From the IMG/VR virus record IMGVR_UViG_3300021135_000011, positions 1-64,000 of that record: a DNA stretch of 64,000 bases; one strand, 5' to 3'. The stretch comes from a virus. Below, one piece after another: positions 10,451-43,681 of the stretch. Position 1 is the first letter of the stretch. The number at the start of each line of letters is the position of its first letter. The notes below the pieces were generated by a model. It was not told where the DNA came from and made no database searches. It saw only the letters and a list, made by a program, of their open reading frames with translations. A program made the position numbers and the translations under genes.

Positions 10451-11710
10451 TTATCTAGAAAAAGGAGAAGCGTTTCTTGTAATTTTAGGTGCTACTCTAT
10501 TTGCATTTCCCCCATCATCAAACGCTACAGAAGTTGACCTATTACCTTGTTCGGTTTTTAGTTTACGAACTGTTTGTTCAACTTGAGCAGTAGCTCCTTT
10601 TTTCATTAATGCTGCTTCATAACCTTCTTCATCTTTTAATAACCATAAAACCTTAGCTATTTTTTGATAATTAGGTTCTTTATATTGATATTTTTCTAAT
10701 AAATTTCCTAATTCGTTAGTTCTTCCACCAGAAACAGATTCATAATTTGCATTTACTAATCCGTTATATAAACTTGTTTGTGTTTTTGAATCCAGTTTTA
10801 TTCCTCCAATCTCTGCAGGCTTTAAAGCAGTATACACATTTTCTATATATTTTTCTGCTGCTAACCTACGTTGTTCTGCAAATTGTCTTTGATCTTCTAA
10901 TTGATATTGAACAATTTGTTCTTTCATTTTGTCCAACTTAGGTTTTAATTGAGAAGCCTTCTTTTCTATTAAACCTAAATCTTTCCACTCTTCAACTTGT
11001 CCTTTTACTTCATCGCTAGTCCAATCTGTATTTGCATTTCTTAAATACTCATAAACTATTTCTTCTTGATGCTCTTCTTTTGTTGGGTCAAGATCTGCTA
11101 ATTGTCTTACTTCCCCCAAGGCTCTATAAAGTGATTTATAATCAGTCCCGCCATTAGCTTCGTATTCATATACTATTTTTGCATCAGGAGAAAGACTTTC
11201 ATAAAACTGTACAGGTATGTTTTTCTTAAAAGCTTCTTCTTTTAATTGTAGATTTTCATCTATAAGTGCATGAAGATCTTTAGTGGGTAGTTTTGCAAGG
11301 TATTCGTCTAAAGGTACTTTTTCGTCATAATCATCAAAAGTAACAAATTCTTTAGCTTCAACCTTTTCTTTTATATATTCTGCTAATGCAGATTTATCTG
11401 TTTTGGGTTTACCTGTAGTAATTGGGCGATCATCCGTTGGCTCAATATTTTCAGGTTTTGCACTATCTAAAATTTGATTTAATAGTGCGTTTTGATCCGT
11501 AGCCGTTTTTGTTGAGCCAGGTATAACTGTTGTTGCATCAATATTTGTTTCAGGAATAGGTGTGTTTTCATTTGGATCTGGTTGATCAAATTTTAATTCA
11601 CCATCATTTCTTTTAAAAATTGCTGCTTGTGGTGGAATAACAAGACTTTCAGAAAGCATTGGAAATCCATCAACTTCTATTTCAACATTTTTTGTAGCAT
11701 TTTCAGCCAT
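10451..11710 (-). CDS. Scaffold-like acidic coiled-coil protein
   Basis: 419 aa. A Pro/Thr/Asp-rich disordered N-terminus (residues 1-115) is followed by long charged helices (for example residues 240-290, KLKPKLDKMKEQIVQ) and a basic C-terminal tail ending in SPFSR. This acidic, helical, low-complexity make-up between portal and capsid genes is typical of a capsid scaffolding protein. No protease motif is seen. Confidence 0.55.
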   Translation of the reverse strand: MAENATKNVEIEVDGFPMLSESLVIPPQAAIFKRNDGELKFDQPDPNENTPIPETNIDATTVIPGSTKTATDQNALLNQILDSAKPENIEPTDDRPITTGKPKTDKSALAEYIKEKVEAKEFVTFDDYDEKVPLDEYLAKLPTKDLHALIDENLQLKEEAFKKNIPVQFYESLSPDAKIVYEYEANGGTDYKSLYRALGEVRQLADLDPTKEEHQEEIVYEYLRNANTDWTSDEVKGQVEEWKDLGLIEKKASQLKPKLDKMKEQIVQYQLEDQRQFAEQRRLAAEKYIENVYTALKPAEIGGIKLDSKTQTSLYNGLVNANYESVSGGRTNELGNLLEKYQYKEPNYQKIAKVLWLLKDEEGYEAALMKKGATAQVEQTVRKLKTEQGNRSTSVAFDDGGNANRVAPKITRNASPFSR

Positions 11711-25308: not shown

Positions 25309-26211
25309 TCATTTTTTGGTTTTTAAATAATTTAAAATAGATATAACTTCATCTTTTAAATAAGGCAAATCATAATTTTTAATTTCTTCTATTATGGGTT
25401 CATTATTAATATCCCTATCGTAGATTGGATTATCATTTGAATCTCTATCTATTTCTTTAAATATTATATGGTTAATAGTTAGTTTGCCAAATTCTAATTG
25501 TGGATTGTGCTTTAAGATAACGTACATATAAAGACTTAATTGTATATTATACACATTTAATTTGCACTCGTCTAAATGCCCAAGTGGAAATAAAAGTTTA
25601 CTTGTTATACCTTTCCAATTAGTAAAACCTTTAGTAGTTAAATTCTTATTGGTTTTATAATCTGTTATATATACTTTGTTATTTCTTACCTCTACTAAAT
25701 CAGATTGCCCACAAATTCCTGCACTTTTTAAATAAACAAAATGTTCAGGGTAAATGTAAAAGTTATCTAACTTTTGTTCTGGGGCGTATTTAACACCATC
25801 TTTTATTATTGGTTTAGCTATAGAACAACTTATTTCATCTCTTTCTATGGAGTCAACGCCGCAAATTTGTTTTTCACGCTCTCTGTGATACCAATTACCC
25901 CTAATTACAGATTCTTCATTTGTTTGTTTCCAAATGGCCTTTATTTCTTCTGGGTCTTTGCCATACCACTTAGATTTTTTATTTTTAGAAGAGCTAAGTG
26001 CCTTTGCTTCAACATCAAATTCTTCCTCAAACATTTTAACAACAGAAGTTACGGATACCCATTTGATATCGTCTTCAGGATTAATAGAATTATATTGGTG
26101 TTGGTCTTCTACAAATTTTACCATATTATTGTTTAAAGGATTTGTTATTGGAATTTTTGCAGATTGTTTTGCAACAAATACTAATAAGATTATTACTATA
26201 ATTATTACCAT
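25309..26211 (-). CDS. PD-(D/E)XK nuclease, apparently membrane-anchored
   Basis: About 300 aa. The nuclease core reads GQSDLVEVRNNKVYITDYKTNK: the GxxD and DYKxxK parts give the RecB/Cas4-like active site. A conserved start of the nuclease domain (MVKFVEDQHQY, with SVTSVVKMF) begins at 26,124. Upstream of it in frame is a hydrophobic helix (MVIIIVIILLVFVAKQ), so starts at 26,211 or 26,244 would give a membrane-tethered enzyme; 26,211 overlaps the previous gene by only 7 bases and is preferred here. Possible roles are DNA recombination or host DNA degradation. Confidence 0.7.
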   Translation of the reverse strand: MVIIIVIILLVFVAKQSAKIPITNPLNNNMVKFVEDQHQYNSINPEDDIKWVSVTSVVKMFEEEFDVEAKALSSSKNKKSKWYGKDPEEIKAIWKQTNEESVIRGNWYHREREKQICGVDSIERDEISCSIAKPIIKDGVKYAPEQKLDNFYIYPEHFVYLKSAGICGQSDLVEVRNNKVYITDYKTNKNLTTKGFTNWKGITSKLLFPLGHLDECKLNVYNIQLSLYMYVILKHNPQLEFGKLTINHIIFKEIDRDSNDNPIYDRDINNEPIIEEIKNYDLPYLKDEVISILNYLKTKK

Positions 26212-33396: not shown

Positions 33397-33675
33397 ATGC
33401 GTACGAAAGTAGAAGTAATCGAAGTAGATGGAGAAGGATTAGAATCACTTCTCAACAAAAATGTAATGATAATGTGTTTTAATTATTTCTATACAGGTAA
33501 ACTTGTAGGAGTAAATGATACATTTATTAAATTAGAAAATCCCCATATTGTCTATGAAACAGGTGCATTTTCTGATAAAAAATTCAAGGACGCACAAAAA
33601 ATATCTGATAATCCACACTACATTCAGATATCAGCAATAGAATCATATTGTGAATCAACAAAAACTTTGATATGA
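33397..33675 (+). CDS. Hypothetical 92-aa protein
   Basis: Preceded by the ACTCAAAAACTTAAAAACATG leader. Compact beta protein in appearance (VMIMCFNYFYTGKLVGVNDTFIKLEN resembles a small SH3 or Sm-like barrel). Its stop overlaps the next ATG (ATGA), coupling it to the Ser-X repeat gene. Confidence 0.55.
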   Translation: MRTKVEVIEVDGEGLESLLNKNVMIMCFNYFYTGKLVGVNDTFIKLENPHIVYETGAFSDKKFKDAQKISDNPHYIQISAIESYCESTKTLI

Positions 33676-33842
33676 GCCTAAGACCACAATCTCGATTAAA
33701 TAAAGTTTATAGGTCAGGGTCAGGGTCAGGGTCATGGTCAAGGTCATGGTCAGGGTCAAGGTCATGGTCAAGGTCAGGGTCAGGGTCATGGTCAAGGTCA
33801 AGGTCAAGGTCAGGGTCAGGGTCATGGTCAGGGTCAGTGTAA
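33672..33842 (+). CDS. Ser-X dipeptide repeat protein
   Basis: 56 aa. After 13 ordinary residues (MSLRPQSRLNKVY) the rest is a strict alternation of Ser with Gly, Arg or Trp (R S G S G S G S W S R ...), 21 Ser in all, encoded by TCA plus xGG codons. It is not interrupted by a stop until the repeat ends. The start overlaps the previous stop as ATGA, which supports translation. Arg/Ser-rich low-complexity proteins can bind RNA or phase-separate; that role here is conjecture. Confidence 0.55.
   Translation: MSLRPQSRLNKVYRSGSGSGSWSRSWSGSRSWSRSGSGSWSRSRSRSGSGSWSGSV
33711..33839 (+). repeat. Hexanucleotide tandem repeat GGTCAn
   Basis: About 21 consecutive copies of GGTCAG, GGTCAT or GGTCAA. Five positions are invariant and only the last base varies (never C). 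Copy-number change would add or remove whole codon pairs without a frameshift. Confidence 0.95.
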
Positions 33843-33897
33843 TATACTAAACTAATTCAAATAGGATAGACTGCAGCGAAGAGTTTTAACCTCATTT

Positions 33898-40863: not shown

Positions 40864-41336
40864 GGGGGTAAAAGGTTTTGATTTAATAAATGCAGGAAAG
40901 TGAGTGTCTAGGCAGGTGTATGTATTGCCTTAAATAATTCATATAATAATAAACGTAGAAGTTTCTAACGTACAGGTAGGTAACGATATAGACGAAATGC
41001 TTATGTCTATGGGCTTGATGAGTGAATTAGAAGTAGCTTAGTCAAAATTACAATTGAGTTGCAACGCATTTGACAACTTTAAAAACATAGATGCGTCAAA
41101 ATTCCAGAGATGTATAGGACAATAAAATAAGAAATCTCCTAGTTTTTGTTATTTTTTAATAGTATTTTGAATACCTGCAGATCGCCTTTGCTTGCTTGCA
41201 AGATTAGCCTAATGAGGTCAAAAGAGAAATAGAAAAGAATAACTAGCCAAGTCAAGGCAATAAAACAGACTATAGACATAAGATAATCATAATTTGGCTT
41301 TGTTAAAGACGAGGCTCTCGGATGCCTCTACCTCCA
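40864..41336 (+). ncRNA. ssrA: Transfer-messenger RNA (tmRNA)
   Basis: The tRNA-like ends match tmRNA: GGGGGTA (40,864-40,870) pairs with TACCTCC (41,329-41,335), including the G3-U70 wobble that makes alanyl-tRNA synthetase charge tmRNA, followed by discriminator A. GGUUUUGA occupies the 5' D-loop place. The T-stem GAGGC/GCCTC directly abuts the acceptor and is preceded by AGAC, as in bacterial tmRNA, though its loop has 8 bases. AGTGAGTGTCTAGGC and AATAAAACAGACTATAGACATAAG resemble the conserved blocks before the tag and near the last pseudoknot. A tag frame runs from about 40,952 (NVEVSN) to a TAG at 41,039 (ends SELEVA). At 473 bases it is longer than usual. CCA is not encoded. Confidence 0.85.
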
Positions 41337-41337
41337 G

Positions 41338-41373
41338 ATTTACAAAGAACAACTACTTCCACGTAGTGTAAAT
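41338..41373 (+). ncRNA. Hairpin between tmRNA and tRNA-Arg
   Basis: ATTTACA (41,338-41,344) pairs with TGTAAAT (41,367-41,373), with an inner ACTAC/GTAGT stem. It starts two bases after the tmRNA 3' end and is likely a processing signal that separates the two stable RNAs. Confidence 0.55.
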
Positions 41374-41406
41374 TGGGATAAATGCAAAATGTTGTTCACA
41401 AAGTTT

Positions 41407-41478
41407 GGTAGTATAGTGTATTGCATCGCACGAATTTCTTCTAAAAATTAAGGCTTGGTTGAATTCCAAGTATTACCA
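41407..41478 (+). tRNA. tRNA-Arg (UCU)
   Basis: Complete 72-base cloverleaf: acceptor GGTAGTA/TATTACC, D-stem GTGT/GCAC, anticodon stem AATTT/AAATT with loop CTTCTAA (anticodon UCU), variable AAGG, T-stem CTTGG/CCAAG with loop TTGAATT, discriminator A. CCA is not encoded. It reads AGA, by far the commonest Arg codon of these genes. Confidence 0.92.
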
Positions 41479-41563
41479 CAATTTAAACTAATTTCAGTCA
41501 TGGCGACTGAGATATCGCAAAGTCTTTATATAGTAAGAAGTATAAAGCACTACTTATAGAGAA

Positions 41564-41905: not shown

Positions 41906-43681
41906 ATGCAAGTAGGAGATTACGCAATATTAAATAATAATGTACCATCATATCAACGTGTAGGATTAGATTATAGTAATGTTTTTAATCAATACAATTC
42001 TTATTTTACATTTCCGCATCAAATAACTACTGTTACTGCGAGAGATGGTACTAAAGTAAGATTAGATGGATTAGTTAATCACTATTTTGATAGGGCATCC
42101 GTTATTTTAACAGATGCCAGTGGAGTACCACTTACAGAAGAAAGAGAAGAAGAAACAATAGAAGTAGGTGATACAATTAGATTTACTTCTAATATATTCT
42201 TAGATGAAAATAGATTAAGCTTAACAACTTCTTATTTAAGAGTTCTTGCAGGAAGTAATTATGAACGCGAATATCTAGTGCAGGCTATTAACGTATCAGG
42301 TAATGTAATATTAGAAGGTATTTCTATGTATACTTTTTGTAGCAGAGGAGTGCAAATTGTACGAAAAAAACTTGCAGACCCCGTATTCAGAGTAGGATCA
42401 AAAGTAAGAATAGTAAATAACCCAATAAGATTACAAGAAGATTCTATTTTTGAGGGTGTTTATACTGAATTACTAAGAGATATAAGTAATGATTTCAATC
42501 ATATCTGGACTATTACAGAAAATAGAGGCGTTACCAACGCCGTATACGGAGATTGGTTTAAATTAGATACTCCTGGTAGACTTATTTTTAGAAAAGGCAA
42601 TTTAGAATTGGTTTCTAATAATTTACAAGTAGGAGATATAGTTAAAATAAATAGAGATGTTTTATCTGAAGGTGTAAGAATATCTGTAGAGTCTAATTTT
42701 GGTTTAAAGGCGTTTATTAGAAATTTTACAGTAACGGAAATACAGCATTCAGCAGAAAAATGGATTTCTTTAGCTAATAATACAAGAATGCTATTCTTAG
42801 AAACAGAATTAATTTTACAACCATCAACTGCACAAAATTTGAAAAAAATTCCTACATTAAAGCCTATAAAAGAAAAGAAACTAGAGACCCTGCCAACACT
42901 TGAAGAAATAGTTGCAATGAGTGCTAATGATGTTTACGACAAATATTATGCAAACTTTAAAAAAATTATTGAAACTAAACTTTATAGTGCTGCAAAATAT
43001 ACTATAGGACAAGGTAAAGACAAAAAAGAATTTAAAAATAAATTAGAAGAATATTTTTTCGGTACATCAAGCTGCAATATAGAATCTGAAGAAGATGCAA
43101 AAAAGATTGTAGTAAATTGGCTTACTTTAGGCGCAGACCTACAAAAAGAATTAGCAGATTTGCAAAAAGTTGAACAATTAAGATGTGACTTTTTTGCAGT
43201 TTTAAGAGATTCTTACATAGAAGAAACTAAACAAAGAGCTACAATTATTCTAAATAGGGGTAAAACACAATTATTTGATCAACCTTCTGAAGAAAATTGC
43301 AAAAACTTTTTTGAAAAAACGCAGGAATATATAAATAATTTAGCAGAATTAAAACAATTATTTAAAACAGCCAAAGAAAATATTCAAAAAATAGAAGAAA
43401 TAGCAAAAATAATTTTATTAAATCAAAAAGAATTAGGAGGTTTAAAAGCAAGATTAGATATATCTTATAAGAATGACACAAAAAAATTAGGTCTCGCGCA
43501 ATATCGAGTAACCCTAAGAAAAATCCTAACAGAAATACCAATAAAAGACTCAAATATAAAAGAAAAGAATAATAGAGTAGAATTATTGGAAAATCTGAGT
43601 ATAAATTGGGATAAGGGCAATGTACTAAGTATATATAAAACTTGCAAGGAGTTTATTTTAAGAAATAAAGAAAAAATATAA
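41906..43681 (+). CDS. Large modular protein with repeated small barrels and coiled coil
   Basis: 591 aa. Four VGD/VGS-type module starts, at residues 3, 87, 163 and 242 (QVGDYAILN, EVGDTIRFT, RVGSKVRIV, QVGDIVKIN), suggest tandem KOW/SH3-like beta barrels in residues 1-310. A Pro/Lys linker and a long charged helical region follow (residues 330-591). It lacks signal peptide or membrane helix. First large gene after the RNA unit, so probably early expressed. KOW-like barrels bind RNA or RNA polymerase, but function is unknown. Confidence 0.6.
   Translation: MQVGDYAILNNNVPSYQRVGLDYSNVFNQYNSYFTFPHQITTVTARDGTKVRLDGLVNHYFDRASVILTDASGVPLTEEREEETIEVGDTIRFTSNIFLDENRLSLTTSYLRVLAGSNYEREYLVQAINVSGNVILEGISMYTFCSRGVQIVRKKLADPVFRVGSKVRIVNNPIRLQEDSIFEGVYTELLRDISNDFNHIWTITENRGVTNAVYGDWFKLDTPGRLIFRKGNLELVSNNLQVGDIVKINRDVLSEGVRISVESNFGLKAFIRNFTVTEIQHSAEKWISLANNTRMLFLETELILQPSTAQNLKKIPTLKPIKEKKLETLPTLEEIVAMSANDVYDKYYANFKKIIETKLYSAAKYTIGQGKDKKEFKNKLEEYFFGTSSCNIESEEDAKKIVVNWLTLGADLQKELADLQKVEQLRCDFFAVLRDSYIEETKQRATIILNRGKTQLFDQPSEENCKNFFEKTQEYINNLAELKQLFKTAKENIQKIEEIAKIILLNQKELGGLKARLDISYKNDTKKLGLAQYRVTLRKILTEIPIKDSNIKEKNNRVELLENLSINWDKGNVLSIYKTCKEFILRNKEKI

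Follow-up and report, generated by a model that had tools for sequence, protein, structure and literature searches.

A divergent one-piece tmRNA with a long tag frame in a crAss-like phage contig

The RNA gene and its surroundings

The window analysed here, a stretch of 64,000 nucleotides within a 65,212-base virus record, carries on its plus strand a 473-base element with the anatomy of a divergent one-piece tmRNA, followed by a tRNA-Arg gene (Table 1). The record contains a crAss-type terminase and portal (phrog_6681, E 4.6e-67; phrog_6547, E 7.2e-61) together with polymerase kin, and the crAss-like terminase and portal support the phage origin assumed in an earlier, sequence-only reading of this DNA. 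Among its closest named kin are Crassvirales and Flavobacterium Fipvunavirus phages, and from this kinship a Bacteroidota host is likely. Close relatives were limited to one near-identical contig and one fragment; the second contig differs at 15 positions in 14 kb, none of them over the RNA. A search of named phages returned no match at E 1e-5; raising the limit to E 10 brought up short AT-rich matches and nothing else. No smpB was found in the record, and SmpB would therefore have to come from the host. The same gene was missing from 18 of 20 related records, many of which may be fragments, and was present in L214 and L297.

Downstream, the tRNA-Arg has a non-canonical T-loop (TTGAATT), and the segment between the two RNA genes (41338-41397) contains ATTTACA/TGTAAAT and GAACAAC/GTTGTTC pairings that cross in a pseudoknot-like manner. 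A 591-aa ORF (41906-43681) lies 3′ of the RNA genes; it has no PHROGs match, and its only relative in IMG/VR is near-identical.

Table 1. Coordinates of the RNA gene, its parts and the neighbouring tRNA gene in the window. In resume contexts, here and in the text, the hyphen stands directly before the resume codon.
Feature	Position	Strand	Details
Whole tmRNA	40864..41336	+	473 nt including discriminator A; end profiles, alignments, anatomy; identical copy in second contig
Acceptor 5′ strand	40864..40870	+	GGGGGUA; carries G3 of G3:U70
D-arm motif	40874..40882	+	GGUUUUGAU; from sequence; conserved in A1
Candidate P2, 5′ strand	40904..40910	+	GUGUCUA; partner UAGACAU 41273-41279; complementarity only
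Candidate PK1	40910..40945	+	AGGCA/UGCCU (40910-40914/40926-40930) and UGUAUG/CAUAUA
Tag frame	40955..41041	+	VEVSNVQVGNDIDEMLMSMGLMSELEVA; 28 codons; stop UAG 41039-41041; resume context AUAAAC-G common to relatives
Candidate PK2	41056..41096	+	GAGU/GUUG with ACUU/CAAC; ACGCA with UGCGU; complementarity only
Candidate PK3	41108..41141	+	AGAU/AUCU, UAGG/CCUA; read from sequence
T-arm	41311..41328	+	GAGGC-UCUCGGAU-GCCUC; non-canonical 8-nt loop
Acceptor 3′ strand	41329..41335	+	UACCUCC
tRNA-Arg (TCT)	41407..41479	+	Downstream in same RNA-gene stretch; ARAGORN only; below Rfam cut-off

The two ends of the RNA pair as a 7-bp acceptor (GGGGGTA with TACCTCC in the DNA) that keeps G3:U70 and A73; this pairing, the length and the coordinates given in the sequence-only reading proved exact on recheck. 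The discriminator A73 is position 41336, and CCA is not encoded in the genome. Three bases 3′ of the acceptor 5′ strand stands GGTTTTGAT. The T-stem (41311-41315/41324-41328, GAGGC/GCCTC) lies directly against the acceptor and closes an 8-nt loop, TCTCGGAT; the placement of the stem and the loop length had also been read correctly before. A D-arm remnant and a T-stem adjoining the acceptor, which are among the features expected of a tmRNA, are both present. The loop itself, UCUCGGAU, is abnormal: the canonical seven-base UUCRANU is absent and the UUCRA pattern is missing. Its nearest match is the T-loop of L214, UUCGAU, with the same C-G closing pair.

In an unconstrained fold of the RNA, the acceptor helix has a probability of 0.89-1.0 and the T-stem of 0.59, and the whole molecule is weakly more stable than its shuffles (z -1.35). 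The candidate P2 is not favoured, with a pair probability of 0.04 in a fold that leaves out pseudoknots. The PK1-like knot lies in the right place, but such knots also occur in 22% of simulated stretches and it is weak on its own. No ORF of at least 50 aa lies within the RNA, and a protein-coding explanation was rejected on this ground.

Homology to tmRNA

Neither standard tool recognised the element: ARAGORN made no tmRNA call in the window or the region, and RF00023 gave no match there at the Rfam gathering cut-off or at E 5. The check proposed with the sequence-only reading thus came out formally negative. The RF00023 cut-off is a threshold set by curators for a model and is distinct from any biological feature. 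We read the missed detection as a limit of sensitivity, because RF00023 gives L123, clearly a tmRNA, 45.5 bits where the cut-off is 47, and because ARAGORN misses L216, which RF00023 matches at 78.7 bits.

We gathered phage tmRNAs from IMG/VR through short 5′ motif patterns, and many of them are recognised by RF00023 or ARAGORN. Profiles were built from the first 100 and the last 60 bases of these other phage tmRNAs, with the window excluded. Initial 5′ profiles gave no match because the spacer of the relatives varies between 3 and 4 nt; the successful set included both lengths. The best match of the 5′ profile in the 64 kb is 40864-40954 (E 0.02) and that of the 3′ profile is 41294-41336 (E 0.024). 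Each E-value is modest, but the two matches lie on the same strand, in the right order and exactly at both ends of the RNA. Aligned with tmRNAs, the last 60 nt reach z up to 11.6 (0 of 300 shuffles), while the 5′ part, once the 21-base search motif is removed, reaches z 4.84 against L172 and exceeds 3 for only 4 of 24 relatives.

Counting both strands and both spacings, about 1e-3 occurrences of the general 5′ motif are expected by chance per 64 kb; for a fitting T-stem/acceptor partner in range the figure is about 0.012 per site, which gives a joint expectation near 1e-5 per window. Across 17 sequences, 99.5% of pair cells in the tRNA-like domain are kept, with many compensatory changes; this test leans in favour of pairing, since part of the set had been selected for it. 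Taken together, end profiles, end alignments and anatomy make homology to tmRNA well supported on sequence grounds, as the sequence-only reading had it, with no single line sufficient. That an intact ssrA was recently captured from Bacteroidota is disfavoured: the 5′ region is far closer to phage tmRNAs, a set that was itself found by a 5′ motif, than to those of Bacteroidota.

The tag frame and its counterparts in other phages

The likely resume codon is GTA at 40955, preceded by ATAATAAAC (context UAAAC-GUA) as in the relatives. The tag that follows is acidic and hydrophobic, with a net charge of -6, and ends in SELEVA. An earlier estimate of about 29 codons had the long frame and the stop at 41039 right but included the preceding AAC. 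Tags of Bacteroidota tmRNAs have 9-10 residues and mostly end in ALAA (ARAGORN, nearly all tmRNAs fetched), and the earlier description of a long tag that lacks this ending holds. We rejected recoding of TAG as a way to extend the tag: the long ORFs are uninterrupted under table 11, and 5 of 38 end in TAG, which makes it a real stop in this phage. As to purpose, redirecting stalled products away from host proteases, as the sequence-only reading proposed, is one possibility among several, and SELEVA may act as a degron, as a weak degron or as something else.

The relatives place this tag in context. A crAss-type terminase is present in the records of 12 of them (L123, L148, L193, L204, L216, L235, L246, L247, L269, L289, L294 and L308), and relatives recognised by RF00023 or ARAGORN include some with the same GGGGGUA/UACCUCC acceptor and UAAAC-G resume context. 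Four (L142, L216, L246, L289) have 26-residue tags of the AKTTSERVAEGEAILASLFADVAIAA type; the others have 30 (L170), 24 (L236), about 26 (L214 and L274), about 36 (L281) and up to 45 (L235) residues. ARAGORN concurs on the tags of L142, L289, L170 and L236; it reads different frames for L235 and L274, so their lengths are our own reading. Within the 26-residue family, pS (0.29-0.55) exceeds pN (0.07-0.19) in five of six pairs, the sixth having too few differences. As a purely descriptive comparison of four sequences, this points to selection on the tag as a peptide. When the L289 tag was compared with the proteins of named phages no match emerged, but this negative is uninformative, since a search of this type likewise failed to recover the known tag of mycobacteriophage Momo. 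Long tags are not confined to the phage studied here: related phage tmRNAs have tags of at least 24 residues, and a phage tag of 25 is known in Bixzunavirus. Of the overall sequence-only interpretation, tmRNA identity, phage origin and a long non-ALAA tag therefore stand.

Other forms turned up in the same material. L123 has a sub-threshold match to wcaG RNA inside its tmRNA (10496-10602; 33.1 bits against a cut-off of 42), and similar sequence occurs in L142 and L216. L144 has an 83-nt tmRNA match (25427-25509, minus strand; 55.7 bits) with no room for a tag, resembling the TLD-only RNA of DS6A. Permuted two-piece tmRNAs are present in L308 (4201-4558) and L206 (5372-5718), with tags GNKFVTDYTRIAA and GKNNNFSVNFGPVAQTAAPKAMMAAA; the terminase frame of L308 is interrupted by TAG, which suggests TAG recoding there. 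In phage cr55_1 (MT774376.1, L322, Crassvirales), unannotated pieces at 33664-33871 resemble a permuted tmRNA: CAGCTCCA lies upstream of GGGGCTG...GGATTTGAC, with a frame GNTMFVTDYSCVA and no recognisable T-stem. These pieces have no ARAGORN or Rfam match, and L247 looks similar.

Phage tmRNAs, and a phage tag of 25 residues, are already known. They were described in mycobacteriophages, Bacillus phage G and DS6A (PMC4131195) and in huge phages (PMC7162821), and a 2025 tmRNA database holds 79 phage sequences (PMC11915505). Marine phage Melnitz likewise encodes a tmRNA, reported with a glutamine-riboswitch-like motif, and permuted forms are common in its group (PMC9004378). Our literature search, which covered sources outside subscription journals, found no paper on a tmRNA in crAss-like phages, crAssphage or Crassvirales by title or abstract.

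The order of parts in the RNA is that of the standard one-piece tmRNA (RF00023, including Bacteroidota ssrA): acceptor 5′ strand with G3:U70, GGUUUUGA, a candidate PK1, then the resume codon and tag, further candidate knots, the T-arm and the acceptor 3′ strand. It differs in its 28-residue tag ending in EVA, its 8-nt T-loop and its scores below model thresholds. The crAss-like phage tmRNAs (L142, L216, L246, L289; L148; L235) share long tags, in most cases the acceptor and in several the resume context, but have canonical T-loops and other tags, and most reach RF00023 or ARAGORN. The tmRNA of Momo (Bixzunavirus Bxz1) also has a long acidic tag, ATDTDATVTDAEIEAFFAEEAAALV, of 25 residues, in the context UAAAC-GCA; it belongs, however, to an actinobacterial phage, is recognised by ARAGORN and ends its tag in ALV.

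Possible function and alternatives

Homology, the tRNA-like domain, the resume context and the open frame favour, at a probability of roughly 0.7, a functional phage-encoded tmRNA that would tag stalled products during infection. By analogy with the tmRNA family, we infer its expression, charging, use of SmpB, ribosome rescue and the fate of tagged proteins. Host AlaRS would charge the RNA with alanine through G3:U70 and A73, and host SmpB and EF-Tu would bind the charged molecule. The RNA would then enter ribosomes stalled on broken mRNA, translation would switch to GUA at 40955 and resume there, and the stalled product would be released at UAG carrying Ala and 28 residues. In this way the phage could keep ribosomes working amid the mRNA cleavage of infection, substituting its own tag for that of the host.

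Because the T-loop is odd, two other readings keep a small share of the probability. A tmRNA gene that recently lost its function is unlikely: it would account for the abnormal loop, the low model scores and the similarly weak tRNA-Arg next door, but the acceptor, the T-stem, the resume context and the tag frame show no damage. The RNA is also identical in the second contig, although this says little at 15 differences in 14 kb. Equally doubtful is a decoy whose tRNA-like domain binds SmpB while the altered T-loop makes it poor at rescue, so that it would titrate SmpB and so reduce trans-translation by the host. DS6A offers a precedent, its TLD-only RNA having been proposed to act in this way (PMC4131195), and the 8-nt loop and the CDS-less L144 among phage contigs would agree with it; a decoy, however, would have no use for a tag, whereas this RNA retains the resume context and a 28-codon frame whose last sense codon is for Ala, and G3:U70 and A73 are intact. 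Chance complementarity or some other RNA is strongly disfavoured, for despite the lack of a curated family match, the modest folding z of -1.35 and the commonness of PK1-like knots (22%), independent profiles locate each of the ends exactly and the joint motif expectation is near 1e-5.

CrAss-like phages rank among the major phage groups of the gut and the environment. Many of them carry tmRNA genes, some of which standard tools overlook or read wrongly. A bolder and less likely reading is that crAss-like and related phages run their own trans-translation, in which long, selected tags would do more than mark proteins for degradation, for example by directing them to another fate; this RNA would then be a divergent form with a remodelled T-loop. 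The long and apparently conserved tags make the purpose of phage rescue RNAs testable: rescue alone, or control over what becomes of stalled proteins.
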